This document shows, piece after piece, positions 18,401 to 59,108 of a stretch of 64,000 bases of DNA. Location: NCBI GenBank assembly GCA_021292105.1, contig CM037863.1, forward strand, positions 9,674,085 to 9,738,084, in the 5' to 3' direction. Position 1 is the stretch's first letter. Each line of letters begins with the position of its first letter. Source of the stretch: Anadara kagoshimensis. Lineage: Eukaryota; Mollusca; Bivalvia; Arcoida; Arcidae. The notes under the pieces were generated by a model, which saw nothing but the letters and a program-made list of their open reading frames with translations, was not told where the DNA came from and ran no database searches. The translations under genes were made by a program, and so were the position numbers.

Positions 18401-21400
18401 AAGTGTCTAATACTTTTGGAACAGTGTACGGATTTGGCTCACTTAATGTGATAGGTCAGTATTTTATAAAGTATATAGTTACCATGGTAACAGTAGTTAA
18501 ACTTTTAGATAAAAATAGTTTTGTCATATTTGTTATAAAAACAAAACAATATTATGAGTAGAAACAAAATAAATTTTTTAGTCAAACTTACCTTGAAGGT
18601 CACCTCTATATAAAAGTCACCTGCTTTTTAAGACAAGTAAAATGTTATGCGATAATTTTTATGTTATTTTAACATGTATATAAGAGCCACCTGCCCAGAA
18701 AGATCACTTTTATTGGTTTCCTTGGGTGGCCTTTAAAGGTTTGACTATCAAATAAATTTGTAAGTCTATGTGAAATTATTGATTTTGCTATTATTGGTCT
18801 TGAATTAAATATTAAATCTGGAGTGAATTAAATATTAATTCTGGAGTGAATTAAATATTAAATCTGGAGTGGAGTAATGGTGTTTTACTTCTTATTCATG
18901 ATAATTTATTATTTGTCCCTCTGATTAGGCCTTAAATTTGCAAATGAGACCTTGAAAAGACCCTAAGAAGTCCTTAAATTTTGAGTCCAAATGTGTGTAC
19001 GAACTGTGTTTGCCATTGGCTATTAGTATTTTAATCATGCATATGGATGGGGATTCTCCAGTGGGGCTTCGATTTGGGTGATGGTTTTGACACATTTACC
19101 TGTTGCAGTTATAAAGTATATCTCGCTTATATTGTCTTATAGAGCCCATTAAATGGCTGCTCATTTGTTGATCAGGAGCATGGTTAGGGATGTCACATTT
19201 GAGGTTTGTTTGGATACAGAAAACTAATATAACTCGTTTATTTTGTCTTACAGAACCCATTATAATCACACTTCCAATAGAAGATAGTGTTGAGATTTTA
19301 CCTGGAGAAATTAAGACGTTATCCGTAGACGCCACAACGGATCCTCAGTTGAACCTAGAATACATCTGGAGTTTTACAAAGAAAGATGACGAGTACACAT
19401 TATCACAACGCGATATGATACTGTCCAATTTATTTGAGTTTAGTACTGGTAGAAAGAACGTCACCATTAATGCTAAAAATTTAAAAGGCTCAGAAATCTA
19501 TCAAGTTATTGGAGTCTACACTGTTGTAATCAGGCACCAATATGAAAATAAAACACTGACGTCTGAATTTACTACAGATTCCACCATAGAACCACCTGTA
19601 ATAGGTAAGTTATATTTTTATCCCTCGCCTTTCTAATAAATGTGGGCTATTATATTCGATTTTCAGTCCTTCTGTCCATCGGAAATTCTTGTCTGCGCTA
19701 ATTGTCCAAAACTATGCAGCACATTTTCACGAAACTTGATGAAAAGTATCGACATACATAGGAGATGTTAACCCAGAGTTTGCTCATTTTCTTTGGAGTT
19801 GTGGCCTTTTGAACATAAGTGCAAATCACAAAAAAAAAAACCTGCTGGCGTGGGATTCTAATTCACTGAATTTGTTTGTTATTTAATAGTTTAACATGAA
19901 ATGGTAATTTTATGGATAGCACTTGTGTATGTAATAAATATCTGCAAGAATAGGATCCAGATAAGTAAACCACTATGCTAGCGTAGGTGTGCTTCCTCTA
20001 GATGTGACTGGTTAGAGTTTGAACTCAGCTGGTCCGATTAAAGACCTTTTGAATAGGTAGTGTCCAAACCCTATACTTGCCCTTTAGTAAAAGTCACAAG
20101 GTCCTTGGAGAGAGACCTTAAAAATGATTCCCAAGAGTACAAAGAGAAATCCACCCATATTAGAATTATGAACTGACAAACTATCACATATTGCTCAAGT
20201 GGGGATTTTAGTGTAGCAACCCCAGGTGATTACCTGTAACTGCTAGAATTTCATAAAATAGTATACCCATCATCATTTATTTCTATTTTATTATGTGTTG
20301 TTTTTAATTTTCTTAATAAAGAGTTATATCATTGGAAACAGATTAAAATACACTACACAAGTATATACTTTGTTTTGTTGTGAGATTTTTGACACCTGAG
20401 ATATTGTGTGTTAATTGTCAAAATTCCAGGTAAAAAGTGTAATACACTGAAGGGCCGATTTTCGGGTAAATCGTTTTAGAGAGGGGTAAATAAGTTTTTA
20501 TTTCCGAAGGGGATGTAATTATCTCAGGATTCTGATTTTTAGCTCACCTGACCGAAGGTCATGTGAGCTTATGGCATAGCGCAGCGTGTGTATGTGCGTG
20601 TGTGTGTGTGCGTCGTTAACACCTATTTTCGACTTCTCCTCTGAAACTACTGGACAGTTTTTAATGAAACTTTGTCAGAAGTATATATGGGCCGGTGCAA
20701 TTCAGATTTGTTCGTGGCGTTGCTATGGCTACCATAACTAGGTCAAGGTGACCTAGGGGTGCAAAAATCTTAAAAAATCTTCTTCTCTGAAACCAATGAT
20801 TGGAGAAAAAATCTGATGTGATATTTAGCTTCTCTAGGGTCTTAAGCCTATAGTTTGTTCATTTTGTGAATTTCGGATAAAAAATAGGTTACGCGTTTTT
20901 GCGTTTAATTTTGAAAAAATCGTAAAATAGCTTCAAACTGTTATAACTTGACTATTTGACCAGATAATGACATGGGGTTTTCAGTTTTGACATCTTCTTG
21001 TTAGTATCTTCAAAATGAGGTCAAGGTCGATTGTGAAGGTCGTGACCTAATTTTTTTTACCTCTGATTATAATTATTATCTCGAAAACTATAAACTTTTT
21101 GTATAGGCATGTATATTAGAATGTTGTAGGTATTGATACAACGATCATTTTGATGTATAGAAAAAGGTCATGGGTTCAAAGGTCAAGGTCACAGATGCGA
21201 AACAATACCGAAATGGTTAATTATCTAAAAAACTATAAACATTTTGTATAGGTATGTATATTAGAATGTTGTAGGTATTGATACAACGATCATTTTGATG
21301 TAAAGAAAAAGGTCATGGGTTCAAAGGTCAAGGTCACAGATGTGAAACAATACTGAAATGGTTAATTATCTTGAAAACTATAAACTTTTTGTATAGGCAT

Positions 21401-23384
21401 GTATATTAGAATGTTGTAGGTATTGATACAACGATCATTTTGATGTATAGAAAAAGGTCATGGGTTCAAAGGTCAAGGTCACAAATGCGAAACAATACCG
21501 AAATGGTTAATTATCTCAAAAACTATAAACATTTTGTATAGGCATATATATTAGAATGTTGTAGGTATCGATGCAACGATCATTTCGATGTATAGATTAA
21601 GGTCATGGGTCAAAGGTCAAGGTCACAGATGTGAAATAATACTGAAATGGTTAATTATCTCGAAAACTATAAACTTTTTGTATAGGCATGTATATTAGAA
21701 TGTTGTAGGTATTGATACACCGATCATTTTGATGTATAGAAAAAGGTCATGGGTTCAAAGGTCAAGGTCACAGATGCAAAACAATACCAAAATGGTTGAT
21801 TATCTCAAAAACTATAAACTTTTTGTATAGGCATATATATTAGAATGTTGTAGGTATTGATACACCGATCATTTTGATGTATAGAAAAAGGTCATGGGTT
21901 CAAAGGTCAAGGTCACTGATGCAAAACAATACCAAAATGGTTAATTATCTCGAAAACTATAAACTTTTTGTATAGGCATGTATATTAGAATGTTGTAGGT
22001 ATTGATACAATGGTTATCATGATGTAAAGAAAAAAGTCATTGGGGTTTAGTATTTATGTGTTCTTTAAATCTATCAGCTAGCCATTAGTTATCAGGTGAG
22101 CGTATCAGGCCCATGGGCCTCTTGTTTAACACAAATCAGATAAAAGAATTATCTTTTATCCATCGTTTGCAGCATCTTTTTATCTGTAGTAGAAAAAAAG
22201 TTATAACACCAAAAAGTTGATCGACGATTGCGCCAAAAATATTTGATAAATTTTTTTGCTGCATATATATTTTAATTCTACACTTTTGTATGATTATTTT
22301 AAGATAAAAATCATAAAAATCCATTGGGTATAAGCCCCTCGGAAAACCAAACAAAAAAGACGATCTTGTCAGTTCGCACCGACGTTCTTCTTTTTGACCT
22401 ACATGTGGTTGTTTACAGTCGCCGCCATATTGGATTTTTAAATTTACGCTAAGTGATATCGATAAATAAACACAAAATATGCTCTTTATACAGCGTTTTA
22501 AGTTGAATAAAGTTTATAATCAACACAAATATATTCACAGCTATCAGTGTTGAAAGCAGTTTTAATTTTCACGGACGATTTTGTTATGAAAACGAAAATT
22601 TTTAAAATGGGGAAATCCCGTTCCAAATAAAGAATCGACAAAAATGGATAGTTTTGAAAATTAATACATGATCGTTTTACGGAGGAAAAACAATAATCGC
22701 GGATCATATTTGATGACAAATTATATATATTTTAAAATTGATTTTCAAACACATGGATTTAGCGGTTTTGTTAAAAAAAAAAAAATATGAGTTTCAACCG
22801 CTATATACCGGAACGAAAAATATTTTGACCCCGTGTTAATATTGAAAATAAATTATAGAAAATATACCAATGAAACCCCAGAAAACAGCTATAATTTCAG
22901 CAATAAATACTTTATAGTTTCATCTAAAAATTTACAATAAAAATGTGCGTATGTGATCGAAATCTTTTGTGGAAAATTTCACTTAAATTCGGAATGTATG
23001 GCGACGAAAATTTTTTAAACCAGGACATTTGGGAAAAAGGTTACTCGTTTTGAGATCATTATTTCTTGAAAATTAAAACACAAACTGCAATAACAAATCT
23101 GCTATGATAAATAAAAAAATTATGACAATCAGGCCTGAAATTAATTTAGTATTTTCTCATACAACAAGATCCATGCACTTAAACTGTAATTTTTATTTTA
23201 AATTTGCATACATGTCTACATTTTGCCCTATTGCCCCAATATGTGAAATTATTAAAAATATTATTATTATTAGCAGTAGATCTAGTGTTGCCTTTTTTTC
23301 TTTTTAAATTTTTACATTTATTTATTTATTTTTTTTTTTGAGAGGGGGCTAAGCTACAGGTCACAGTGTCTGCCCCCCTGTCTG

Positions 23385-26882: not shown

Positions 26883-27559
26883 ACTGAGTTAAAAGTATGA
26901 CAACTGATCATGAAACAGTTAAATCTCGTTATCTCGATCTTCACAGGGAAATGAGAATAGTTACTTATCCAAAGTTCAAGATATCTGTGCTGAAGAATTC
27001 AACTTTATGTTGTATGTTACCTTGTGTAAAGCTCCGGTAATATAGATTTAGTTAAAAGTGTGGTAGATTACTGTGGACTTGATTAAGGACAGTAATGATT
27101 ATATCAAGGACCTCTCTCGCCCTTTTATGAATAGGGCTTGGATCCTTGTGAATTAGGGACTGTATTTCTATTTTGGCATCAATGGCGCAAGAGTCCCTTC
27201 TACATTGAACACTGCTATTATGATAAATTATTGCAGAAATGTCATTATTGGAACTTTATTATGTGTTTGGTGTATTGGTTTTGATATTCCGAGAAATGGC
27301 TGTAAGCAACATGTAATTTGTTGTAGCTCTGCTTGGTGTACTTGGTTTTGTCGTTATATCATTATACATGCATGTTATTCTGATAAATGCCTCTTAAGAT
27401 AATGCTTGTTTGTAATTGTGCAGGGATTTGGTTTTGTGTTTATTTATGAATTAATCTGTTTATCCATTCCCTCCATTAATTATCATCAATTAGTAACGAA
27501 AATTAAATTAGATATTCCTTCATGTGTTACATCAACAGATTACTTGTGTTACTAACCAT

Positions 27560-27970
27560 GGTTCTCATTGGTTCTCTCGTTGAACTTACCTTGGTTTTCA
27601 TTGGTTCCCTTGTTGAACTTACCTTGGTTTTCATTGGCTTTCTTGTTGAACTTAAGTTCTCCTGTTGAACTTATCTTGGTTTTCATTTGTTATCTTGTTG
27701 AACCTAACCTTGGTTCTCTTATTTAACTTCTCTTGGTTCCCATTGGTTTTCTTGTTTAACTTACCTTGGTTTTCATTGGTTCCCTTGTTTAACTTACCTT
27801 GGTTTTCATTGGTTCCCTTGTTGAACTTACCTTGGTTTTCATTGGTTCTCTTGTTGAACTTAGCTTGGTTTTCATTGGTTCTCTTGTAAACCTAACCTTG
27901 GTTCTCTTATTTAACTTCTCTTGGTTCCCATTGGTTGTCTTGTTGAACTTACCTTGATTTTATTGGTTCT
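27560..27970 (+). repeat. 33 bp minisatellite
   Basis: About a dozen units of the pattern CTTGGTTTTCATTGG-TTCCC-TTGTTGAACTTAC. Since 33 is a multiple of three the array stays open in one frame (27665-27889), giving a leucine/phenylalanine-rich peptide that I regard as incidental. Confidence 0.85.
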
Positions 27971-33774: not shown

Positions 33775-34519
33775 TTGCATGTTCAATTTCATCGGCGAAA
33801 GGCTCGGAAATATAATCCCAGAATTGAACGCCAATTAACCCTCAAAAAATAAATTCCAGAATTTTAAAAAAAAATATTTAAAATGAAAATGTAACAATTA
33901 ATGGCTTTCAAAGTCAATAAATATGAATGCCAAAACCTTGCATGACAAACCAATCATAATGTGCAATTGCACAAAGGTTGTTGTGCAAAGGTTTGACATT
34001 CAAACTGACTATGAATGCCATGTCAAAACAGTTTAATTGTTAAATATCTAATGCAAATCAGGAAGTTTGTGTGTCATTAATTTTTCACCAGAGGTAGCAT
34101 TTTAAGTTTTTTGTGTACTATAATTTGGTTGGAAAACAGTTGAATTTTTTTTTAGTATTTTGTTAATATCAGGATTTTAAAAAGTGAAGTACATGTACTT
34201 GAAGATACATGTATATCACTTGTGTTTCTACATTTCCACAGATTCAATTTTATCAACTGTCAAATTTCCAAAAAGTGTGAAAATATAACCCTTTTTAATT
34301 TTTTTTCACAAAACTGAAATCTATTACTTTTTGAATGATGATCTCAGACATTTACTAGTATCAAAATGGCAACTTTGATAACCAACAATAGGCCCATGGG
34401 CCTTATACGCTCACCTGATAACTAATGGCTAGCTGATAGATTTAAAGAAAACATAAATACTAAACCCCAATGAATTTTTTCTTTACATCAAAATGATCAT
34501 TGCATCAATACCTACAACA

Positions 34520-35420
34520 TTCTAATATACATGCCTATACAAAACTTTTATAGTTTTCAAGATAATTAACCATTTCAGTATTGTTTTCGCATCTGTGACC
34601 TTGACCTTTGAACCCATGACCTTTTTCTATACGTCAAAATGATCATTGTATCAATACCTACAACATTCTAATATACATGCCTATACAAAAAGTTTATAGT
34701 TTTCGAGATAATTAACCATTTCGGTATTGATTCGCATCTGTGACCTTGACCTTTGAACCCATGACCTTTTTCTATACATCAAAATGATTGTTGTATCAAT
34801 ACCTACAACATTCTAATATACATGCCTATACAAAAAGTTTATAGTTTTCGAGATAATTAACCATTTCGGTATTGTCTCGCATCTGTGACCTTGACCTTTG
34901 AACCCATGACCTTTTTCTATACATCAAAATGATCGTTGTATCAATACCTACAACATTCTAATATACATGCCTATACAAAAAGTTTATAGTTTTCGAGATA
35001 ATTAAACATTTCCGTATTGTTTCGCATCTGTGACCTTGACCTTTGAACCCATGACCTCTTTCTGTACATCAAAATGATCGTTGTATCAATACCTACAGCA
35101 TTCTAATATACATGCCTATACAAAAAGTTTATAGTTTTCGAGATAATTAAACATTTCCGTATTGTTTCGCATCTGTGACCTTGACCTTTGAACCCATGAC
35201 CTTTTTCTATATATCAAAATAATCGTTGTATCAATACCTACAACATTCTAATATAAATGCCTATACAAAAAGTTTATAGTTTTCGAGATAAGTAACCATT
35301 TTGGTATTGTTTTACATCTGTGACCTTGACCTTTGAACCCATGACCTTTTTCTATACACCAAACAATACCTACAACATTCTAATATACATGCCTATACAA
35401 AAAGTTGATAGTTTTCGAGA
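34520..35420 (-). repeat. 145 bp tandem repeat array, copy 2
   Basis: Six units, each with TGACCTTGACCTTTGAACCC (near 34602, 34743, 34888, 35033, 35182, 35325), the complement of the DR1-plus-half-site block of copy 1. Confidence 0.9.
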
Positions 35421-35744
35421 TAATAATTATAATCAGAGGTAAAAAAAATTAGGTCACGACCTTCACAATTGACCTTGACCTCAATTTGAAGATACTAACA
35501 AGAAGATGTCAAAACTGAAAACCCCATGTCATTATCTGGCCAAATAGTCAAGTTATAACAATTTGAAGCTATTTTACGATTTTTTCAAAATTAAACGCAA
35601 AAACGCGTAACCTATTTTTTGTCCGAATTTCACAAAATGAACAAACTATAGGCTAAAGACCCTAGAGAAGCCAAATATCACATCAGATTTTTTCTCTAAT
35701 CAATACTTTCGGAGAAGAAGATTTTTTAAGATTTTTGCACCCCT

Positions 35745-39560: not shown

Positions 39561-39712
39561 TCAGTAGTCTTTAGGTCTCATTCTACACATAGCTATACAT
39601 AGTGCAAACACTATAATTATGAGAATTATGCCAACTGACATCAGGGACCATGTTGCTGTTTTAAAATTTGTCACTTGCTGTGCTTCTTGAGCTGATTTCG
39701 GAGTTGTAAATT
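39561..39712 (-). CDS. Carboxylesterase exon 11: membrane anchor
   Basis: Encodes a short Gln/Thr-rich stalk, then [20 protein letters not shown] and MCRMRPKDY, stop TGA. No PDZ ligand like that of vertebrate neuroligins. Confidence 0.88.
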
Positions 39713-42700
39713 CTGAAATAGAAAAGATCACCATCAACATTAACAACAATCTTTACTGAGTTAGAAGCTAAGCATCATGTAGACAAGATGTAAAGGAGTG
39801 GAATAATATGACTGATAGTGTGACCGTTAAGGAAGCGAAGCAGACAAAGTTCTATGACAGAAGTTTTAATTCTACTTTCAGCATAGGGCAAATGCGGAAT
39901 ATTTCTTAGGAAAAATTCTGAAATAATAATTTGAACATTTTAGTTACAGACAGTATATAAGCATACTAGGTTTTTACACTGTCAACATTGGTGGGATCTC
40001 TGAAAAGAAACAACAATCTCACGAGATCCCATTTGGTTTGAGCTTCAATATGGCTATGTATTGCGGGTATAATAATTCGATTCATTTAAGAATTTTATGT
40101 ACACATGTTGTCTATTGTGAAAGCTTTGCTTTTGCAGCCTTAGGACGTGGAAAAGCTGTACTTTCTATATGTTAAGAATCTTTCACATATATCTATATCC
40201 ACCATGTATGTGGTCAGTTAAGGGATGGTGAAGAAAACAACCGACCTTTGGCAAGTAAACTGACAAACTTTAACACTAGGATCTGCCTAGAGAAGGGTGA
40301 AAATCTAGGTTGTGGGAAGTGCTGTAATCCATTACCAAGTGTTTCAGACCACTCAGTCACTGAATTTCCTTGACAAGGTGGAAGCCGCTCTTTTATGTTT
40401 ATGGGATTTTTTTAATTTAAAGTAACCCTTCACCCTTATCCTGCCCAACCCATGTATTAATAACCCCAATCTTCACCCATTATATAAAGTCAATCATTTT
40501 ACGAGTTCCTCATATGTATATACAGTTCCTTCCCCAGTCTCACCCTTTACATATAACCACTTCCCTCTGCCCAAACCTTTATATAAAACCACCTCAATCT
40601 TCCCAACCCTATCTATAAATACACCCTCCCTACCCAACCCTTTCTATAAACCCCTCCCTTATCTCACTCTTTATATACACCCTAGTTAAAGTCTGTCCCG
40701 AGCCATTAGGCCCATCAGGCCGGAGCTTATCCCGGTTTCGGTGGCGTTAAGTGACTGAGAGTACAAGACTCTCCCCTGAATGGGACGCCGGTCCATCACA
40801 GGGTTAACCCCCAGCATTTTACTGGTTCTCATTTATTTTTCAGCTGAGTGAACTGGAACAACGTGAAATTAAATGTCTTGCTCAAGGACACAACACATCG
40901 CCCGGTCCAGGGATCGAACCCATGACCTTCGAATCATGAGTCCAACGCCTTAACCACTAGGCCATGCACTTCCACAATACACCTGCAATCATATACACCC
41001 TGCCCTTGCCCAAACCCTTACATCACCCCCTGCCCTGCTCTTACCTTTATATACAACCCATGCCCTACCCCTGCTCCCACCATTTATACATATCAACCCT
41101 CCCTGATCATTTATATACTTACGACTTGGCCTATTCCATATCTTTGGGAAGTATTGTCTCCAGAATGCGTACTCTGTCTGCCTGTAGTTAGTTAAGTTAT
41201 GAGAAGAGTTGCCTATATACAGGTAACTATGGTTATATAAATTATACTCTCCCCAGGTTATGTTTCTGAAGTGCTTCAGGTCATATGTTCTTGGTGTTGG
41301 ATCTCTGAAAAAAAAGAAAAACATGTAAATTTAGTGAATGGGGTTCATTGCTATACCACTTGATACTCTCTACTGTTTGTGCGGAACACTTATTTTCAAG
41401 GGATATGGAATCGCATAAGATGACGTTTACTTGTTAAAACGACGTCATTCCAATACTTTGTTATTTTGAAGTTTTCCAAACGTTCCACACAAATGTTAAG
41501 AGGTATTGATCATGTGGTACAGCGGCAAACCACATTAGAATCACCCGATAGGTACTTCATTATGATTTTTACTTATGTTAAAAAAAACATAACTCCCAGG
41601 AAAATCAGTAAACCGACTCAGGTTAATGACATGCACATCTCCTACTGTATAAAAAGAAACATTAGCCGTAGGATACATTCACGGTTATAATCTTCCGAAC
41701 TATTTCGTAGTAGAAATTTTCACAGTTCTAACAGTAGGAATAGTGTACCAAGGGAAATAAGAAATTTTCGCTGAGAAGATATATTTGCGGTATAAGAGTT
41801 ACCGTGAAAATTGCGAACATTTTTTCCTTGCAAATATTTCTTCTTTTACAGTATTAATGCTGAATCACTGATACTTTGCACCAAGATTCGTAAAATAGTG
41901 TTTCACAATTTTGGAGAATTACTCTAGACAAGAAGTGTCTGGACAGGCAAAAGGATGGAAGGTCGGATATAAAAAATCTATTATCCCCCCTTTTTTCTTC
42001 TTAAAGACAAGGAATAATAAGACATTAACAGATGTATTTAATAAATTAAGACACAACAAGAAAGTTTGGCATCTTGATTTCCAATTAGGTCTGTTGCAAT
42101 GTTATTTGTTCTTCTCATTCTCTCCTAATGATCTTCAAATGCTATAGGATTTTGCATAAAAGGAAATAAACAGTAAGCCATTTGTGTATTCAATTTAATT
42201 TTTTACATAATAGATATTTCATATGTAGAAACAACACTTACCCGCTAGATGAAAAGTTTGTCCATAGAGCCATCATGTATTCACTTGTGTTTCTATCAGC
42301 GTAATCATAATATTGTCGTGGATAGACACCAAATAAATCCTTATATGTCTGGTTAATAAAGGGAAATCCAAATACATATTGTAACTCCTGTCCATGTGCA
42401 ATACCTGAAAATACATAAATATATTTACACAATGAATTCCAAATACATACTGTAATTCTTGTCCATGTTCAATACCTGAAAATATGTAAATATATTTACA
42501 CAATGATTTCAAATTCATATTGTAACTCCTGTCCATGTGCAATACCTGAAAATACAAAAATATATTTACACAATGAAGGGAATTCCCAAACCCAAATACA
42601 TGTACATACAACATGTACAAATACATATTGTAATTCCTGTCTATGTACAATACCTGAAAATACGTAAATATATTTACACAATAAAGGGAAACCCAAATAC

Positions 42701-45700
42701 ATTGTAACTCTTGTCTATGTGAAAGTACATATTTTTATGTGTGTGTATATGTATTGTGTGTGTACATGTATATGGGTGTTCTGTTACAATGTGTGTAAAC
42801 TATGTTTCATAATATTAGATGTATGTGCAGCGATTTTGTTTACCTAAAATTACTACCAAATAAAGGTAGTTTCTCCATGGAAAAAGTGACTTAAATTTCC
42901 CAATTTGACCACTAAAATTCCCAAAACAACAGTAATACACTCACAAATTTAATCTTGTTGTCTTTAACAACAAAACGTTTGATTTGCATCTTCATATACA
43001 TGATCCTAAGCTGTTGCAAGCATGTCATTATGCAGTTGGCTGTATTTGAGAACTGTTTTGTTTTAAAAAATATAACAAAATCACTGATGTGTTTGAAAAC
43101 CAAATAACAATTCAAATTATAAAATAAAGATGTTAAAGTTAGCATAGAAAACCAAAACCTTACCTCTATATTTAGGCAGATAGTCGTTCCAGGAGAAGTA
43201 ATCAAATACATATACATAAGTATGGTTAAATCTAGAATGTGCCTTAACAACTTCATCCATGCCGGTACCGAACATGTAATCCGACATCATCTGTAAAAAA
43301 AAAAAAAATCCAAAAAGTAAATTCAATGAGTTAGGATCCTTGGCAAGCAGGTTCTTTTTTGTGATTTACACTTATGTTCAAAGGACAATAACTCCTAGGA
43401 AAATGAGTAAACCAACCCAGGTTAACGATATGCACATTTCCTATCAATGTTGATGCTTTGTACAAGTTCGATGAAACAGTGCTTCATAGTTTTAGAGAAT
43501 TTGTGCAGACAAGAATATTAGACTGATTGTCTTAAAGACGGACAGAAAGTGAAATTCAATATCCCCCTCTTCCTTCGAAAGGTAGGGGATAATAAGGTAT
43601 TGTCCATACCAATTCAAGTGAAGCTATTTATTCATACATCTATTTAAAAAATTATGTCAATATTACAAGCCATTGCAATAAAAAATTAAAACAGCATTTT
43701 CATAAACACATACCGTACATGGTGAAGCTATAATACAGAACTCAGATAAAAATTTTCTAACAGCTTTGTATGAAACCAAGTACCGGTAATCAAGCTACCG
43801 TGTACTCAGCACAAAATTAGGATGGACGGCCAGACATATGACCAGATGCATGGTCTGACACTAAACTTGGGAAACATTATCTTATGATGTTTCACATTTC
43901 TGATATCCATGGATAGACATGGAAGATTATGGAGCAGACACAATATTGAAAAGGACAGCCAGATGGATAGACAGACATCTATGTTTCCATTCCAAATAGC
44001 TAAAATTGCCACTGGCTATTAAATTCTGAGATTTATTATCTTAATAATTTTGTAAAAACCTAACTATATACCCCCCCCCCCCCATAAACCTTGTTTGCCG
44101 GGGGTATAAAAATCAATCTATCCACTCACATCTATGGTGCGTTGTCGTACCATACTGAAATTTTTGGGTTGTGGCCAGTATGTGTACTGGAAGGTCAGCG
44201 CATCTACTGTGTTGGTCATATCCTCCACAGCCCTGTCGTTTAGGAACTCATATAAAATGTTGTCGAATTGAACATCAGATATTCCATCTGACAGTGTTGG
44301 TAAATTAGCTAAAATATAAATACAGCAAAATCTCATTATAATGCCCTTCTATCTGTTAGTAGTGGTAAAGTAGATAGAATATTTACCTGTATAGATGTGT
44401 GTTTCTCACACAGGAGACATGAAAATCCTGCGTTTTTACCAATGTGAGATTTTTAATCTCAACCTAATGTGAGATTTTTCCAAACCTACAATTTTCTCAA
44501 AGTCACAATCAGTTACACACTTTTAATGGTGATATAATAATCATTTTACATGAGAGTGTCAATAAAAATCAATTACATCATTTTCAGAAGACACCGATGA
44601 TGGCAATAAATCTGAACATTTCATGCAAATCTTTGTTTACAAATCATGTTTTTATGCTGCAAATGTGTGAGAAAAAGAATCCTACATCCATAACAGTGTA
44701 AGACAGATATGTCTTAAACTCAATAAAGCTTGTTCTGGACAGGAAAATATTCATCCTGGTTTGAGATATCTCTGTCTTAAACTGTTACCTGTGTAAGATT
44801 CTATAAATCTCTCATGGCACAAAACCCTATCTCACATGAGCAGATATAGAAAGAAAATGGGTTTTGACTTATTATAACAACCTCTTACTCAAACGATCAT
44901 GTTCGAGTATTGTTGAGTGGTTATTGCAAGATATTTAATTTAACACTTCTCTAGCCTAAATTACAGATAAATGAATGAATATTGACAGAAATTGTAATGT
45001 TTAACCTTGCAATAAATGGGCAACTTATTCAAAGGGGTTATATAATCATTGTATTCTTAATTATTTAATCCTTGCACAGATTGTCTCTATATACAAGTTT
45101 TACTGTACTAAAGCAACTGAGTAAACTTACGTATAAAAAATGACCCATCATCTTTATTAAGACCAGCCATTATACGATACTTCTTGAATCTGGCTTGCTC
45201 TCTCATATTTTTGGGGGTATCTGGCAGAAACCCAAAGTTTACACCTTCTATTGGACCATCAACTACCGGTGCCCATGGGTTACCGACCTTACCATCCTGA
45301 AAAATGTAGTCATACATTATCATGATTCATGGTTGAAAAAATCTTTCCTGAAAAATGTCATGAGTCAAAATTAAACAAAACAAAAACATTCATCATTAAT
45401 GTACATGATCAAAAAGCTAAACAAAATTAAAATTGGATCTTGAAATTAAAACGAAAAATTCATAAATGAAAAGGAAATACAATGCATTTAAATACATTAC
45501 ACATTGACCATGGAATCTTGTGATGCGGACCACATGGTAGAATGTTATGTACAATAAAACATGAATATAATGAACACACTTAAAACAAATACATAGATAG
45601 AATGAAGTCAATTATTTGGCCTGACCGCTTCTCTATATAAGTCTATTTATAACAATATAACGAAGTCGCTTTGCAACGAAGTTAAAAATAGAGTCCCAAG

Positions 45701-48700
45701 AGGTTCGTTATAAACGTGTTTTACTGTATCAACTTTTACAGCAAAATAAAATGGAGTCTATTTAAGAAATGGTGTTTATATCCCAGTCAAGATTATTTCA
45801 CAGTTCATGGATGGTAAAAGAAACAGAAGTGACTGGAGAAAACTATCAAGCTTTGGCAAGCGACTGACAAACCTTTTCATGCTAGGATGTGTCCCGAGTT
45901 GGATTTATACCTTGGCATCGAATCTTTGGTTCTGTGGTACATAAGTGCATGTTTGTAGTGTGAACATGTATTGAGTATACGGAAGAAGCCTGAGAGAATG
46001 TTTCTGCAGTATAAATATGTACAGCAGTGATTTTGTTACATTTTTTTAAAAACTAACTTTTGTCGTTTAAATTGGAAAAAACTGAAGTTCTAAAATACAG
46101 AAAACTGCATAATGACATACTTGCAATAGCATAGGTTAGGGACAACTAGATTTAATTTAGTAGTAAATCACTGTTGTTAAATGGGAATTTTAGTGATCAA
46201 ATTGGGAAAATTTAGTCTTTTTTCTCCCAGGGGAAACTACCGGTACCTTTATTCGGTAGTAATTTTAGACAAACTAGTAAATAAGAAGAATCCCTGGGAG
46301 GATGTTTCTATAGTTTAAATACGTATTGTGTAGTAAAAACCTACCTTTACTCTAATCATAAATGAGGCATTGACAATCTCGTCACTTTTTTTAATTTGTA
46401 AACATTTAATCAATAGGAAGTTGTTATTGGTTGGACATCCAACCTCATTGGCTAATTCCTTAGCATATTGCGCAGCATCAGTTACCGGGTCAATTACGGC
46501 CCACTCACTCCTGTCTGAGCCACTCTGCATTATAGCTCGGGAAAACATACCTATGAAAAAAATAAAGAATGTACATTATAAGTTATACAGGGCTTTGGCA
46601 GGTTACATGGCCCCATGTACCCTCATTCATCTTTGACGGGGTACATGGGGCCATGTTACCTGCCAAAGCCCTGTATAGCGTGTTTGCCACCCTTCAAAGC
46701 ATTACCAGTTGCCTCTTTTTAACTTCCACTTTGTGTTTTGTGTGACTTGCGTATGTTGTTGCCATGTTTGTTTACCATATCTAGACATCCACGATGTACG
46801 AGTTACTTCCCTTTTACCGCTAAACGTTGCGTGTGTTCATGTACCCCGGCAGATTTCCGAACATTGTTCTATGTACCCCGGCAAGTTAACCAATCAGCAT
46901 GCAAGAAATTTCATTGAAGGGTGACAAAAACTATTAAACCAGTAAAATAAGTCAATTTCTAGCATATAAATATTGACATAAACTAAAACTGTAGGTGAAT
47001 CTGATTTATACCCCTGAAAAGGTTTTGTCTTTGGGTTATGACCTTTGACCTATGGCTCTAATTTTGGTACGTGACACATTGTCTCAAGTTGGTTTACATT
47101 TGTGCCAAATTTGAACAAAATCCATCCATTAAAATGGAAGATAGGGAATACCAACAAGATATTTCAATGTGCAGTCAATCAGGCCATGTTGCCATTCCTG
47201 GAAGCCAAAATCACCATTGGCTACTTAATCTGAGAAATTCTTGACTAAACTAGCCTAAATCAGCAAATGTGTGAAACAATACTTTAACAAGCAGACAGTT
47301 GATACTTTAACACATTTTGGAAATTTGTCTACTAGTATTTATATTTTAAATTTGTGGAAACCTAGAACAGGGCGATTCCTCTATACTTCATTTGCAGGGA
47401 GTATGTTAAGGGGTGTTGATCATATGGTACAACAGCAATCAGTATATTTATCTAACATTAGAGTAGTTTTTCTATCTGATTCGACGAAATAAAGTACATG
47501 TGCACTTTTAGTCGGATTTCTTATTGTGACGTCATTGGGGAATCTCCGATTTTTCAAATGTAAATAATGACGTCATTACTACAGAACATGTCATAACAAA
47601 GTTCAGTGGTTTTCTGTGGTAAAATGTATTTTTTTACATAAAGTATTGTTTTTATTTTTTAAATAACTTAATTGGAAATGTTAGATAAAAATATCATATA
47701 CATAGTGTGAATGTACAACCCTTCCTTTTTTCGTAGCTATATCCCTTCTCCTCGCGAGTGATACGGCTGCGAAAAAAGGACTCAACCTGATACTGAGAGT
47801 TGTACATACCCACTGTGTATATAATATGTATGTATTGCTCCATCAAAATCTATTTTTGATTTTGGTGTTTGAAATAATAATTTCAACTGTAAAAATTAAA
47901 TAGTTGATTGTAAAAATAAGGCTACTTACGAACAGTTCTTGGAGACAGAAGATGAAGGCCGACTGCAGCAGCTCCAGTACTTGCTCCAAACAGTGTCACT
48001 ACTCCTGGGTTACCACGGAAAAACCTGATATTATCTCGGATGAATTCCAATGCTCTATGCTGATCCCACAATCCATAGTTACCAATAGCATTTCCATCTC
48101 CAGTACTCAGAAACCCTTAAAAATAAAGAAATTTATAAACAGTACTGTAAACATATTTAATTTTGCATGTATTTATTTTCGAGGTATAAGAAATTAAGAC
48201 ATATCTGCATAGTTTAATTTTTTGGTTTTTCAAATAAGCACTATAATACAAGTAGCATAATAAAATTTTCACTCGGTTTTAATTTTTGTGCAAAAAAAAG
48301 ATCGGGAAAATTAGTACACCACAAAAATTAATAATATTTATGTTTACAGTATTTCTATATAATACTATAGGGGTGGGTATTGGGGAAAAAAGCATATTGC
48401 AATATATTGCAATATTTGAGAAAATATTGCAATACATATTGCAATACATATTGCAATATATTGCAAAGTTAATGAATGCTTAAAAGGTAAACGAACCGGC
48501 ATCCAAGTTTGGGTGATGGCAGCGAATGTGAGAAGTAAGATTACTTGTACCCCCAGCATAATTATCGTCTGCATTACAGACAGTGCATACTGCTATATTT
48601 TCATTAATAGCCCCCGCTATTTGCATAAATTTAACATGTAGTTGACAAACACTTACGAGATAAAGATGATATTACAGTCTATTGAGTGTTAATTAACAAA

Positions 48701-51177
48701 ATAATGACCGTAAAGCATAATCTACTGATTTTTTTTAATTTCCGTGGTATACCGGTTTTTTATTTTGCGTACCGGTATATTGTATCGACCCTGCCAGACC
48801 GCAATATACCGGTATACTGGTAATATTGCACACCCCTATAATACTAGTAATCAAATCCCACTTGAGACAGATCCTTGTGTGAGAAAGTTTGTTAGTTTGC
48901 TTGCAGTTTGTCAGATTGTGAAAGGTCGGTGGTTTTCTTTGGGCATTCTGGTTATTTTGGCCATCTTAGAACTTACTTTCTCGTACCTCGGACACAAAAA
49001 TCTTACGCGCACACCAGTGCTAGATTTTTCTGTCTTGTCCAGTTTGTCTGGTACTGCCTCACGCGACAATTGAACAATCAGGATGACGTATCCGATCATT
49101 GCGCTTGACGTCATCAAAACAAAGCGTTTCTTAATTTATTTTTCACATATGTGTTTTATTTTACTTTTTATTCAAAATATTTCATTGTCAAAGTTTTTTA
49201 TATTTGCATTGAATACAAATCGTTGATATTTTAAAATTTTGAAGAGTTGACGATGGGATTATTTTCAAAGGGCGGATTTGTACAATGCATTAGGTGCCCA
49301 AAGGAATGCAAGAGGCCCCATGAGGGTACGTGTTTTGTTTTGTATACACAGTTATAAACACTTTTAAAAATGGTACGAGAAATAGAATCTATCACTTGTT
49401 TGTGACCGATACCGGTTGATCTCAGCCTTGGGTGCTGTGATGTAACATATCCCAATCTCGGCAGAGCCTCGATTGGGATATATGTTACATCACATCACCC
49501 TCGACTGAGATCAACCGGTATCGGTCACAAACAGGTGACAGATTCTATTAGTCTCAGTATAAGTGAGAGAATCTTTACTAGGCCATAAAACTCCATTACT
49601 CGACAACCCACTCTATACCATGTATCAAGAAACCCTTAAATAAATAAATGTTACCAATGGAATTTCTATACCCTTTATTCATAAGCTTTTAAATATATAC
49701 TAGTTTGTATATATATACAAAGAAACAAAACACAACAAAACAAATGAAATCCAAAGGATAAAAGGTAAAAAGGATGCCCAAGAAACACCTGGAGACAAAA
49801 TACATGTACCGAAATGGAATTGAAACAGAGAGGATGCAACTGGACAGACATTGAAAACTTTGCACAGAAAAGAGCCAGATGGAGGGATTTTGGGATTTTG
49901 CCATGGCCTTAGAGCTCCAATGGTAGTTTAGGGACAAAGTAAGTAAGTAATACAAAGATTAAATTTGCAATGGCAGGTGGTCTTTGTACAAAGGTAGTCA
50001 CTATAACAGGCTATATGGTATTTGTATGAAAAATTAAATAATCTCTGTCAGAAAATCACATACCTAAAGGACCTAGTCTGTAATTTAGTGTTACCACGAC
50101 AACATTTCTTTCTGCCAGGAACACACCAGGATACTGCTGAGAGGCACCATACACAAACCCCCCTCCATGTATAAACACCATGACTGGATACAAACTTGGG
50201 CTTATTGAAGATGGTTCATCTGTTCTCTGAAGTAAAGAAAATATAAAACATGACACAGTTTAGCTAGCACATGAATTAGATTGATTGAATTTGGTTTGAT
50301 GTCCCAGTCAAGAATGTTTTACTTATATTGAGACACCACCAGCTGTAGAAGAAAACAAGTGGCAGAGATTTTGACCTTGGCAGTGTGCTTTGGGCAATGT
50401 ACAAGGAGGGTTCTTTAAAGAGAAATGTGTGCCTTGACACAAAGCATCGAGTTTTAAGGTCTCTTCCGAAGGACCCTGTGACTTTCATTTCTAAATGCCA
50501 GGGGCCAGTTGCACAAAGCTTGATTAGTTTAATCAATTGATCAGTCAAAATTTGAATTTCGTATAATTTCAGATCTGTTGTGAAATTAAAGTTGAAAATG
50601 TTGAAGAGAAATACATATGTAGAATTCCATCACACCTAACTATATCATTATAAAACTATCAATTTGATAATGTCATATTGATTTTTATTGTCTTTTTAAA
50701 TTTGTGTTAATCATTGATTAAACTGATCAAGCTAACTTACAACCAAAGCTAGTCATTTTGTACCATAACCATTTCGTACCCAAATTTACCATTTCGTACC
50801 CAACTCTGTCCATTTCGTACCATGCTATATGACCAATTCGTACCATAACCATTTCGTACCATGACCATTTGGTACCCAAATTTTCTGTTTCTATGGTACG
50901 AAATGACTAGCAAATTTTTATTAAAATAATGCATTCAAAATCTGCACATGAAAATACTACCATTTCGTACTACATTTTATAAAATATAATGACATATTCT
51001 CCACTTTATCATTTGGAAATTCCGTGACCCGGCCTTTGTTTTAGTTCTGATGCCCATAGTTTACCAAAACACATTGTTTTTTAACATAGATTCTCAAAGT
51101 CCAAGCATCTTTTTTACTTGAAGATGTTCGTCTTATTCAAGTTTTATTTAAGAACTTTAGTATCATGTAAGAACTAC

Positions 51178-51240
<63 letters not shown>

Positions 51241-53794
51241 AGAGAGAGAGACTTTCACTATGATACGAAATTTATTGTAGGAATTGGTAACATTTCACTA
51301 TCATATGGTATGAAATGGTAGCTATGTAGTGATAATATATGGTAAAATGGCTTGAGTGTATGGTACGAAATGGACATGGCACGAAATAGGCGTTGATATG
51401 GTACGAAATGGATGGTACGAAATGGTCATGGTACGAAATGACTATAATTCACTCCGCTCTGTAGCATATCATGCCTAATAATGCTCAAAGTTCACCGATA
51501 TACCGGTATTGTGGTGCACCAACGTTTGTGTAGGACAATTATTTCCATTGGATATGGAAGCATACCAGTTTACAGGGATTTATCAAGGTCTTTTGGGAAA
51601 AGGCTGTAAATTAAAAGTTGGGAAAAACTATCAACTTTTTGCTCATTTTGGGAAAACTTCGACATCATTTTTGATGCCATTAATGATTAAATCTTACGCT
51701 GAAGGTGCTCAGCAATGTCCTGGACACCAAGATTAGCAACAAATTTTACAATGTCTTCACAATTACACAAAATTTTCTTTCATTTTCGTTTAAAAACAAC
51801 AATTTTCTAATTGGGAATTTTCTCAGCCAATTTTGAGAAAAAATCAATGTTTTACCATTGGGAATGGGGCCGAATTTTGGCCATTAATAGGCCCTTGATA
51901 AATCCCTGGTTAATGTTTTCCTATAAAATGATGTTATTCATGAAATTTTCAATGTAAGTACTGTATATTCAAAACATTCTGTAAAAACCTTAAAGTAATT
52001 GATCCTGTGGTACACTGGAATATTCAATTGAAATTATCACAAAGAGATTCAGGGAATTATCTGGATGACCACAAATGATATAAACAATTGCTTACCAATC
52101 ACAATGTCTCTCACCCCTAGGTTTGATCCAACTCATGGTACATCCTAGAGTGCGAAAGTTAATCAATCTGTTTGCCAAAAGTTTGGTGGTTTTCTTTTGG
52201 CACCCTTGTTCCCTCCACCATTTCTGAACTGACCGTGTTGATATAAGTGAAAGAATCTTGACTGCATCATAGAGTACCACTACTATACTCCACTCAATTC
52301 AAATAAATGTCAATTTTCAATATACAGTCAAACCTTTCTATAAAGACCACCTAGGGGAAAAGGTAAAAATTACCTTTATGGACAGATGCTCCTAATATGC
52401 AGGTTCACATAACCTGAACAGAGAGCAGTTAAGATAAAATTTCACTGGCCTTAAAGGCTTTAAAAGCAGGTGGTCCCTATATATATAGAGGTGACCATTA
52501 AGACAGGTTTGACTGTAATTCTATATAGACTTACAGCTGGTGAAAATATATTGAGGTAGAGACAGTCCTCATCTATATCTTTGTTACTAAAGTTTGGTAC
52601 TGTCTCTTTGACATACCAAACTGGCTGGGGACAAGCCGGACGGTAATATGTGGCATCCCAAACACCACCCCAGTAAGGCTTCTTTGGTTTCTGAAATAGA
52701 AAAAAAAATAGCTCATATAAAAACAATGTGATTATCTACAGCATTAAAGACCACAACTATGTTTTTATTCTTGGTAGCCAAAATCACCACTAGACACTGG
52801 TTACTAATTTTTTCAAAGAGTAACCTATTATCCCTGCAGACAGGGATTTATCCGGGTCTTTTGGGAAAAGGCCCTAAACTAAAAATTGGGAAAAACCTAT
52901 CAACTTTTTGCTCATTTTGGGAAAACTTTGACATCATTTTTTACGCCATTAATGATTAAATCTAATGCTTTTAGTGTATTGAGTTGATTGAAGATTGAGA
53001 AAAGCAGCCACATTTATGGCCAGGCTTAAGCTATGTATCTGGTACAATTTTCTAATTGGGAATTTTCTCAGCCCATTTTGGGAAAAAATCAGTGTTTTTT
53101 CCATTGGGAATGGGGCCGAATTTCGGCCCTAAATAGGCCATTAATAAATCCCTGCAAATTTGTGATAAAAATAAAAATTAAATACTCCAAGAAGGATGTT
53201 TTATTGATAGTTGGCTTCTTCGGAAGATGAAGGACAGACTCCAACCCAGAAATATGGACGGACATCACATGGCCAAGTATAGTACTTGTCATTGGCTGTT
53301 GAAGTCATTTGGGTTGAGGTTTCCAACTTCACTCTGGACTTGGAAATTTCTGAAATGATTTGCGTAAATACATGTAGGCCACCTGTGGTCACTACAGATG
53401 ACGTCTTCAATGAAAAGTGATTAAACCGCCTAAGCAAGATAAGAAATTGTGCAAACCAGAAACCTTCTTGCAATTGGGGACTGAGCTCCACTTTCATGTC
53501 TCATTCCTCCACTCTTTCTCTCTATCCAGATGCATTACCCACCTTAAACCTGAACTCTCTCTGGAAGTCATCGTACTGAGATTTTCTCTTGGCGTATGGA
53601 ATTCCTAAGAATACATTGATACGTTTTCGTTCAAACGCCGAGTAATGGGAATGGATGGAAAAGCCCTTGACGGGACCGTGTATCGTGTCAACCACAACAT
53701 CAGTTAAACCTTCACAGAAACTAAATGTTATAAAAACACATAAAGTCAATAAAATTAAGTTTTTAACATCAATCCGGGGATATGATGATTCCAT
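39561..53794 (-). CDS. Membrane-anchored cholinesterase/neuroligin-family carboxylesterase
   Basis: Eleven exons, 1932 nt, close in frame without any anomaly to a 643-residue protein: signal peptide (about 1-29), alpha/beta-hydrolase carboxylesterase domain (about 30-575), one membrane helix (about 615-636) and a seven-residue tail ending RPKDY. Type I, lumenal/extracellular catalytic domain. Oxyanion hole HGGGF (156-160), nucleophile Ser236 in GASTG, acid Asp371 in NKDDG, His482 in AHGQEL. Disulfide pairs typical of the family: Cys104-Cys127 and Cys291-Cys302. Known relatives hydrolyse choline or carboxyl esters, or act as adhesion proteins (neuroligins, which lack the Ser). Here Glu of GESAG and of the triad are replaced (GASTG; Asp), so activity is possible but uncertain. 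Convergent with the L1-like gene. Confidence 0.92.
40683..40975 (-). mobile_element. SINE, full copy with tRNA head
   Basis: On the minus strand the head reads TGGCCTAGTGGTTAAGGCGT (box A) and AGGTCATGGGTTCGATCCCT (box B), a convincing tRNA-derived promoter, followed by a conserved 230 bp body shared with 15233-15492. Confidence 0.8.
41123..41304 (-). CDS. Carboxylesterase exon 10
   Basis: Encodes [22 protein letters not shown] and AFWRQYFP, the usual C-terminal end of the esterase fold (G-D-P-x-P...Y-L-x-I...F-W). Three sequons (NIT, NHS, NLT). Confidence 0.9.
42242..42404 (-). CDS. Carboxylesterase exon 9: catalytic His
   Basis: Begins right after TTTTCAG with [16 protein letters not shown]; His482 is the triad histidine in the family motif H-G-x-E-L-x-Y-V-F-G. 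Two sequons. Its 5' edge has been duplicated into the preceding intron (42405-42720). Confidence 0.93.
42405..42720 (-). repeat. Tandem copies of the intron-8 acceptor plus exon-9 start
   Basis: On the minus strand, three extra acceptor copies precede exon starts at 42475, 42545 and 42653, each with a polypyrimidine/AT tract, CAG and a His-motif peptide: [26 protein letters not shown] and [13 protein letters not shown] further partial copy lies near 42690-42720. Spacings to exon 9 are 71, 70 and 108 bases. Each copy covers about 40 coding bases and no downstream donor. Confidence 0.88.
42838..42925 (-). repeat. Repeat with inverted partner at 46188
   Basis: On the minus strand GGGAATTTTAGTGGTCAAAT and 'actacctttatttggtagtaattttagg' match 46188-46275 on the plus strand. 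Both lie in introns of the same gene. Confidence 0.65.
43164..43290 (-). CDS. Carboxylesterase exon 8
   Basis: Encodes [34 protein letters not shown]; the 'Y-x-Y-x-F-D' strand preceding the His loop. One sequon (NHT). Confidence 0.9.
44130..44308 (-). CDS. Carboxylesterase exon 7
   Basis: Encodes [20 protein letters not shown] through [11 protein letters not shown]; helical segment between the acid and His. Phase 1 in, 0 out. Confidence 0.88.
45131..45296 (-). CDS. Carboxylesterase exon 6: catalytic acid
   Basis: Encodes [14 protein letters not shown] and [13 protein letters not shown]. Asp371 sits where most relatives have Glu (N-x-D-E-G). Confidence 0.92.
46188..46275 (+). repeat. Repeat with inverted partner at 42838
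   Basis: GGGAATTTTAGTGATCAAAT through GGTAGTAATTTTAGACAAAC pairs with 42838-42925. Confidence 0.65.
46345..46550 (-). CDS. Carboxylesterase exon 5
   Basis: Encodes [18 protein letters not shown], the conserved A-I-x-Q-S-G strand after the nucleophile helix, and Cys291/Cys302, a conserved disulfide. Confidence 0.92.
46584..46677. repeat. Hairpin with 38 bp arms
   Basis: TATACAGGGCTTTGGCAGGT, 'tacatggccccatgtaccc' is complemented almost perfectly. It lies in intron 4 of the esterase. CTGCC/CCCGGCA-type echoes follow to 46890. Confidence 0.85.
47183..47364 (+). mobile_element. MITE, family A, diverged copy
   Basis: CATTCCTGGAAGCCAAAATC at the left and TTTGTGGAAACCTAG at the right match family A; no clear duplication at the ends. 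Confidence 0.6.
47930..48115 (-). CDS. Carboxylesterase exon 4: nucleophile elbow
   Basis: Encodes [37 protein letters not shown] and [11 protein letters not shown]. Ser236 is the nucleophile; the usual GESAG reads GASTG. Confidence 0.94.
48368..48838. mobile_element. 471 bp hAT-like MITE
   Basis: Ends TAGGGGTG and CACCCCTA with perfect 8 bp duplications TAATACTA at 48360-48367 and 48839-48846. The interior repeats TATTGCAATA and ACCGGTAT motifs. An 8 bp duplication fits hAT. Not coding. Confidence 0.8.
48850..48965 (+). mobile_element. SINE fragment
   Basis: Box B-like AATCAAATCCCACTTGAGAC and 'gtgagaaagtttgttagtttgcttg' match 23430-23545. Confidence 0.5.
49381..49550. repeat. Foldback with about 75 bp arms
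   Basis: AATAGAATCTATCACTTGTT and GTGACCGATACCGGTTGATC at the left are complemented at the right, ending GATTCTATT. The centre contains CTCGGCAGAGCCTCGA. Confidence 0.85.
50064..50226 (-). CDS. Carboxylesterase exon 3: oxyanion hole
   Basis: Encodes [20 protein letters not shown] and [14 protein letters not shown], both family signatures. Confidence 0.95.
50268..50510 (-). mobile_element. SINE family D, 3' part
   Basis: Complement of the family tail (AAGAATGTTTTACTTATATT region) and of 'ttagaaatgaaagtcac'. The head is missing. Confidence 0.55.
50749..51443. repeat. Foldback region rich in CATTTCGTACC
   Basis: At least seven CATTTCGTACC-like motifs lie at 50752-50970 in one orientation and six GGTACGAAATGG-like motifs at 51300-51443 in the other. 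A GA microsatellite (51181-51251) sits between them. Every motif has GTAC or TACGAAA at its core. Confidence 0.75.
51181..51251. repeat. (GA)n microsatellite
   Basis: About 70 bases of GA with one GGGG interruption. Confidence 0.9.
51571..51909 (+). mobile_element. MITE, family B
   Basis: Ends CAGGGATTTATCAAGGTCTT and GGCCCTTGATAAATCCCTG are inverted repeats. 339 bp. The interior shares GGGAAAAACTATCAACTTTT with 6555 and 52843. Confidence 0.75.
52085..52290 (-). mobile_element. SINE, 14877 family, reversed
   Basis: Minus-strand CCATGAGTTGGATCAAACCT (box B-like) through 'aagtgaaagaatcttgactg' tail read in the plus direction; eroded head. Confidence 0.45.
52325..52515. mobile_element. MITE, CAGTCAAACCT family
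   Basis: Ends CAGTCAAACCT and AGGTTTGACTG, flanked by TA on both sides; 191 bp. It ends 20 bases from exon 2 of the esterase, inside intron 2. Confidence 0.8.
52535..52690 (-). CDS. Carboxylesterase exon 2
   Basis: Encodes [20 protein letters not shown] and [15 protein letters not shown]; Cys104 and Cys127 form the conserved first disulfide, EDCLYLN is the family signature 2. Confidence 0.94.
52757..53170 (+). mobile_element. MITE A split by a MITE B insertion
   Basis: Family A sequence runs 52757-52830 (TTCTTGGTAGCCAAAATCAC ... AGTAACCTATT) and resumes at about 53155 (GCAAATTTGTG). Between them is a family B element, 52843-53155 (CAGGGATTTATCCGGGTCTT ... TTAATAAATCCCTG). This dates B's insertion after A's here. 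Confidence 0.7.
53330..53410 (+). mobile_element. SINE fragment
   Basis: GGAAATTTCTGAAATGATTT and 'ccacctgtggtcactacag' match the body of the SINE at 30289. Confidence 0.5.
53543..53794 (-). CDS. Carboxylesterase exon 1: signal peptide
   Basis: ATG at 53794 begins [20 protein letters not shown] and continues FITFSFCEG, a signal peptide. Then [11 protein letters not shown] and [10 protein letters not shown], the G-x-x-x-G and F-x-G-I-P-Y-A start of the esterase fold. Ends in phase 0 before GTGGGT. Confidence 0.92.
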
Positions 53795-58640: not shown

Positions 58641-58842
58641 AAAAGGATGTGGTGGCTGTGTTACCATAATACTTATACAACAAATTAGATAAAATCATAT
58701 GGTAGCATAATAAGCATAAAAGTACTAAAAATCTCTGACTGGAAAAAGAGAAATTTCTCCAGTATCACAGAGAGACTGAAGTTAAAGTATCACAATAAAA
58801 ACTACCGGTACAGTGTTTCTTTAACTAGAAATTCACTACCGG

Positions 58843-59108
58843 TCAATTGCTGTAAACTCCTCAGTTTTGGTGGTACACTCTATACTGTCTTCCAGGTGGT
58901 TCCAGTCAATTGCTGTAAACTCCTCAGTTTTGGTGATACACTCTATACTGTCTTCCAGGTGGTTTCAGTCAATTGCTGTAAACTCCTCAGTTTTGGTGGT
59001 ACACTCTATACTGTCTTCCAGGTGGTTCCAGTCAATTGCTGTAAACTCCTCGGTTTTGGTGGTACACTCTATACTGTCTTCCAGGTGGTTCCACCCAATT
59101 GCTGTTCG
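58843..59108 (+). repeat. 63 bp minisatellite, about 4.2 units
   Basis: TCAATTGCTGTAAACTCCTC recurs at 58843, 58906, 58969 and 59032. Units are almost identical, hence recent. Two frames stay open because 63 is a multiple of three; not regarded as coding. Confidence 0.92.

Follow-up and report, generated by a model that had tools for sequence, protein, structure and literature searches.

A tandem array of four splice acceptors upstream of the active-site histidine segment in a predicted carboxylesterase-like gene

The intron 8/exon 9 boundary of a carboxylesterase/neuroligin-like gene, predicted within the 64,000-nucleotide stretch of DNA analyzed here (the window), is preceded by a tandem array of copies of itself. 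Four TTTTCAG acceptors follow one another on the minus strand, with first exon bases at 42653, 42545, 42475 and 42404, the last belonging to the real boundary at 42405/42404. The array is probably a silent local duplication inside intron 8, with splicing directed mainly to the last acceptor, at 42404. This reading rests on the anatomy and divergence of the array, its confinement to one locus, the reading-frame outcome of each acceptor, the single positive result among 20 splice boundaries of the gene, the precedent of similar arrays in lancelets, and a second boundary duplication at another esterase locus, L066.

Host gene and anatomy of the array

The gene model (Table 1), assembled manually from open reading frames and splice sites, is a prediction, in a window with a G+C content of 34%. 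Its ten introns are all of the GT-AG type, and the exons join into a continuous frame of 643 aa. The predicted protein matched the carboxylesterase family, PF00135, with an E-value of 2.1e-129, and the top-scoring solved chains along its length were neuroligins, followed by acetyl- and butyrylcholinesterases. The Ser of its GASTG motif aligned with the GESAG Ser of acetylcholinesterase, and a His encoded by exon 9 aligned with the one that bile-salt-activated lipase carries in GADHADDLQYVFG; we take these two residues to be catalytic. Judged from the alignments, the product is a PF00135 member that appears to keep both its nucleophile Ser and its catalytic His, and a hydrophobic segment close to its C terminus resembles, by eye, a membrane anchor.

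Table 1. Features of the predicted gene and of the acceptor array, in positions of the window
Feature	Position	Strand	Description	Basis
Whole gene model	39561..53794	-	11 coding exons; carboxylesterase/neuroligin-like; C-terminal hydrophobic stretch	Built by hand
Exon 8	43164..43290	-	Would-be partner of all four acceptors; first intron base of its donor at 43163	Gene model
c4	42680..42728	-	Outermost copy; exon-like part up to exon position 50; without AG acceptor	
c3	42572..42679	-	108 bp; acceptor; first exon-like base 42653; 94% identity to c0 over 62 columns	
c2	42502..42571	-	70 bp; acceptor; first exon-like base 42545; 97% identity to c0 over 62 columns	
c1	42431..42501	-	71 bp; acceptor; first exon-like base 42475; 90% identity to c0 over 62 columns	
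c0	42405..42430	-	Last 26 bases of intron 8, with the real acceptor	
Real exon 9	42242..42404	-	163 nt; phase 1 start; carries the active-site His segment	Gene model, His alignment

Upstream of the real acceptor, three extra intact copies each comprise, without gaps, the last 26 intron bases and the first 36 exon bases. A first-pass annotation of this DNA had counted three intact copies and one partial copy upstream of exon 9, as found here, and its coordinates for the three extra acceptors and for the end of exon 8 (43164) agree to the base. The shared exon start that it described was also recovered, although its length of 40 coding bases has to be corrected to 36, the ungapped stretch common to all four copies. 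Its period of about 70 bp corresponds to units of 71, 70 and 108 bp and to a TRF period of 71 (42363-42577, score 353), the TRF call covering c1, c2 and the real boundary. Likewise upheld is its description of a unit that joins a 3' splice site to active-site codons, given the alignment of the encoded His with that of the lipase. The insertion carried by c3 is placed after its exon-like part, and the outermost copy, c4, gave a local alignment score of 64, whereas none of 500 mononucleotide shuffles exceeded 24.

Pairwise identity among the four intact copies ranges from 87% to 97% over 62 aligned columns (2 to 8 differences), the closest pair (2 differences) being c2 (42545) and the real boundary. 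Of the 62 columns, nine vary, three on the intron side (positions -12 to -10) and six on the exon side; the nine bases preceding the cut show no variation. In its exon part, c1 differs from the real exon at four positions, with three of the changes synonymous, and CAG/GT is kept in three of the four extra copies.

This divergence bears on whether the array could be an assembly error, in which repeated or haplotypic reads were set in tandem. One lancelet mirage, a tandem duplication of this general kind, was apparently misassembled in a draft genome, according to PMC3087553, and six groups among 30 esterase loci of the present assembly share over 95% identity across more than 2 kb. However, differences of this number, together with an insertion in one copy, exceed what would be expected of a single sequence assembled twice, and we regard such an error as highly unlikely. 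The six esterase groups, as well as pairs with equal or near-equal scores lying 0.2-2 Mb apart on one contig (for example, C13:7727696 with C13:9358131, and C1:42810209 with C1:43018358), could be recent duplications or unresolved haplotypes.

For a silent duplication, we infer that a segment across the intron 8/exon 9 boundary, comprising approximately 26 intron bases and up to 50 exon bases, would have been duplicated tandemly several times. The copies may then have drifted, leaving the outermost without an acceptor, one with an insertion and two a few bases shorter; the acceptor of c4 may have been either deleted or never copied. The invariant nine bases and the synonymous changes in c1 would also fit some constraint, which speaks weakly against a neutral history, the changes being few.

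Predicted consequences of acceptor choice

Only acceptor 42404 gives a straight full-length frame. Plain use of acceptor 42475 would lengthen the mRNA by 71 nt and put exon 9 out of frame, whereas the additions from 42545 (+141 nt) and 42653 (+249 nt) are multiples of three; readings from the latter two nevertheless run into one common stop, the TAA within GTGTAAAT, which belongs to the intron portion of the 42475 unit. The predicted products from 42475, 42545 and 42653 comprise 545, 494 and 530 residues, respectively, compared with 643, with premature stops 213, 436 and 436 nt upstream of the final exon junction. Stops that far upstream of the last junction normally expose a transcript to decay. 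Use of an extra acceptor would therefore be expected to lead to decay or to a shortened protein that lacks the hydrophobic segment at the C-terminal end. The competing acceptors had been proposed to yield isoforms with altered His loops; because all three, read straight into exon 9, give premature stops, plain acceptor choice cannot make a full-length enzyme of that kind, and we reject this route. If the duplication is silent, exon 8 would be joined preferentially to the exon-attached acceptor at 42404, and any use of a decoy would produce an mRNA with a premature stop, to be removed by decay.

The same stops could be put to regulatory use, the extra acceptors serving as poison sites whose deliberate use sends some transcripts to nonsense-mediated decay and so sets the level of the esterase. 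The presence of three intact acceptors, each followed by a premature stop over 200 nt upstream of the final junction, and the invariance of the nine bases preceding the cut are consistent with such a role. However, no sign of regulation came to light, the units are unequal in length and sequence, and the nearest precedents, the amphioxus arrays considered below, are reported as normally spliced (PMC3087553, PMC3902484), so that we consider regulation of this sort improbable.

A different outcome would be incipient intron or cassette-exon gain, in which an exon-like part of the array is taken as a small exon through a cryptic donor within the unit. With a single mini-exon and a minimum intron length of 30 nt, ten of the possible routes maintain the frame and avoid stops. 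All ten start from 42653, and four lead on to the real acceptor, for example through an 84-nt exon followed by a 165-nt intron. A precedent exists in the potato RdRp gene, in which, as described in PMC4974935, a duplicate was turned into a new intron and exon. Against this, the candidate donors in the unit, such as TGT/GTAAAT and CAG/GTATTG, look weak by eye, no in-frame, stop-free route within the same limits starts from 42545 or 42475, TGT/GTAAAT leaves an intron of just 24 nt between adjacent units, and the insert would adjoin the active-site His. Exon gain is accordingly given very little credence here. Recursive (ratchet) splicing at CAG/GTATTG is also unlikely, the donor half being weak by eye.

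Taken to its furthest, this line of thought would make the array a live source of gene structure: 42653 and a cryptic donor would create an in-frame small exon (e.g., 84 nt) beside the active-site His in some transcripts, the other acceptors would act as poison sites, and copy number would tune both the output and the form of the esterase. We hold this combination to be very improbable. The likely role of the array is none, and splicing leakage, if any, probably ends in decay.

Distribution of the repeat and of boundary duplications in the genome

The assembly searched comprises 1.115 Gb in 36 contigs. A search of the array against these 1.1 Gb, with a DNA search that skips very common words, returned no match outside its own locus. 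The core pattern AATATATTTNNNTATTTTCAGGTATTG has four mismatch-free matches in the genome, all within the array. When up to three mismatches were allowed, it occurred at 114 places, compared with 15 for the reversed pattern; the listed matches outside the array carry two or three mismatches each, and many are TATT-rich by eye. A single genomic locus for the array is hence strongly, though not absolutely, supported. The possibility that the array is a generic repeat present elsewhere, which the first-pass annotation had named as a refutation of its view, was not borne out as far as the search reached, and a generic dispersed minisatellite is rejected within the same scope because the array and the exact core matches occupy one locus.

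Within the gene, 20 splice boundaries were tested for copies over 1.5 kb on each side, and the exon 9 acceptor alone was positive. No close paralogue of exon 9 showing the ancestral boundary was found in the assembly; its other matches there lie at two places, in 278-aa open frames, with equal scores and 43% identity. Each of the 30 top family matches extends uninterrupted from profile position 2-5 to 472-501 of 515, several with stops. Since the match continues unbroken through the likely His region, these 30 paralogues seem to lack an intron at that point.

The survey was extended to 30 other carboxylesterase loci with 1.5 kb flanks, representing 23 clusters after merging of those more than 95% identical, and the same test applied to exon 9 as a positive control recovered the array. 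One of the 30, L066 (G000:C5:40529993-40531453 with flanks), has a boundary duplication. There, an exon 3' end with its donor recurs in degenerate form within the intron, 518 bp farther downstream, with 83% identity over 42 bp (offsets 2931 and 3449 in gene orientation); the copy is non-tandem and has lost the GT. By the same test, no boundary duplication was detected in the remaining 29 loci. The L066 copy suggests that boundary duplications may not be restricted to one gene in this genome.

Several other repeats and assembly features were recorded along the way. The window contains a 33-bp minisatellite of approximately 13 copies at 27551-27970, whose minus strand repeats CCAAGGTAAGT, a good 5' splice site match, in several units. 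A 63-bp tandem repeat at 58842-59105 (4.2 copies, 96% matches) carries CTTCCAGGTGG in its unit and has long open frames on both strands. Two arrays with a 145-bp period, at 21075-22040 (6.7 copies) and 34476-35424 (6.6 copies), have consensus units that look reverse-complementary. Outside the window, the acceptor-like AATTTATTTTTTTATTTTCAGGTTATG occurs at eight places in G000:C3:9844130-9861054, in steps of approximately 1.4 kb or multiples thereof, a pattern that resembles a longer tandem array whose unit carries an acceptor-like site. Contig C22 accounts for 15 of 19 scored ABC-transporter matches, six with an in-frame TGA, and appears to be of bacterial origin, using a Mollicutes-type code, within the animal assembly.

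Relation to described boundary duplications

The first-pass annotation had called the array unusual, a judgment that we share, although its kind has already been described: tandem duplications of intron-exon boundaries in amphioxus genes were termed 'mirages' (PMC3087553). Those in BflGb6, BflGb9, Adh3 and TnC resemble the present array in being minisatellite-like tandem copies across an intron-exon boundary and in keeping splice signals in many copies; here, the boundary spanned by the unit is the authentic one of the predicted gene model. BflGb6 shares with the present array the repetition of the 3' intron end and the 5' part of the next exon. Its units, given as 150-160 bp, exceed the 70-108 bp found here, whereas the 10-72 bp given for those of Adh3 would accommodate all of the present units save one. 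The gene is a different one and the phylum apparently another.

Regular splicing was reported to be undisturbed in the globin and Adh3 mirages (PMC3087553) and in TnC, a further lancelet mirage (PMC3902484). The latter paper describes lancelet PGBD5 as similar, its authors proposing undisturbed splicing without transcript evidence over the repeats and omitting an exon that a gene prediction had placed inside them, and PMC3087553 notes that mirage copies could serve as cryptic splice sites. Judged by its structure, the present array appears to be another case of the mirage kind, apparently outside the lancelets. Among the open-licence literature matches listed, in the text that these provide, no boundary repeats from molluscs were recognized, the cases met being from lancelets and potato.

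Intron gain by tandem duplication, as described for ATP2A1 and potato RdRp, likewise involves a tandem duplication carrying AG/GT. According to PMC4974935, the duplicated RdRp segment consisted of the 3' side of the intron and the start of the next exon, as it does here, and a cryptic GTAAG donor made it into a new intron and exon. In the present array, a new intron or exon would be a hypothetical product, and a donor shared by the units would leave the 24-nt intron noted above.

Tandem acceptors are also known as NAGNAG sites, at which closely spaced 3' splice sites change the protein by one residue. Competition among 3' splice sites for one exon is common to the two arrangements; the spacing is 3 nt in NAGNAG sites and 70-108 nt here, and the predicted outcome here is a premature stop and not a one-residue change.

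By itself, the array most likely has no effect on the protein. Near-identical tandem acceptors constitute a natural test of how the spliceosome chooses among sites, and tandem acceptor copies have been proposed as the initial stage of intron gain. Four such acceptors, in a clean case outside the lancelets, would suggest that mirages are not a lancelet oddity.
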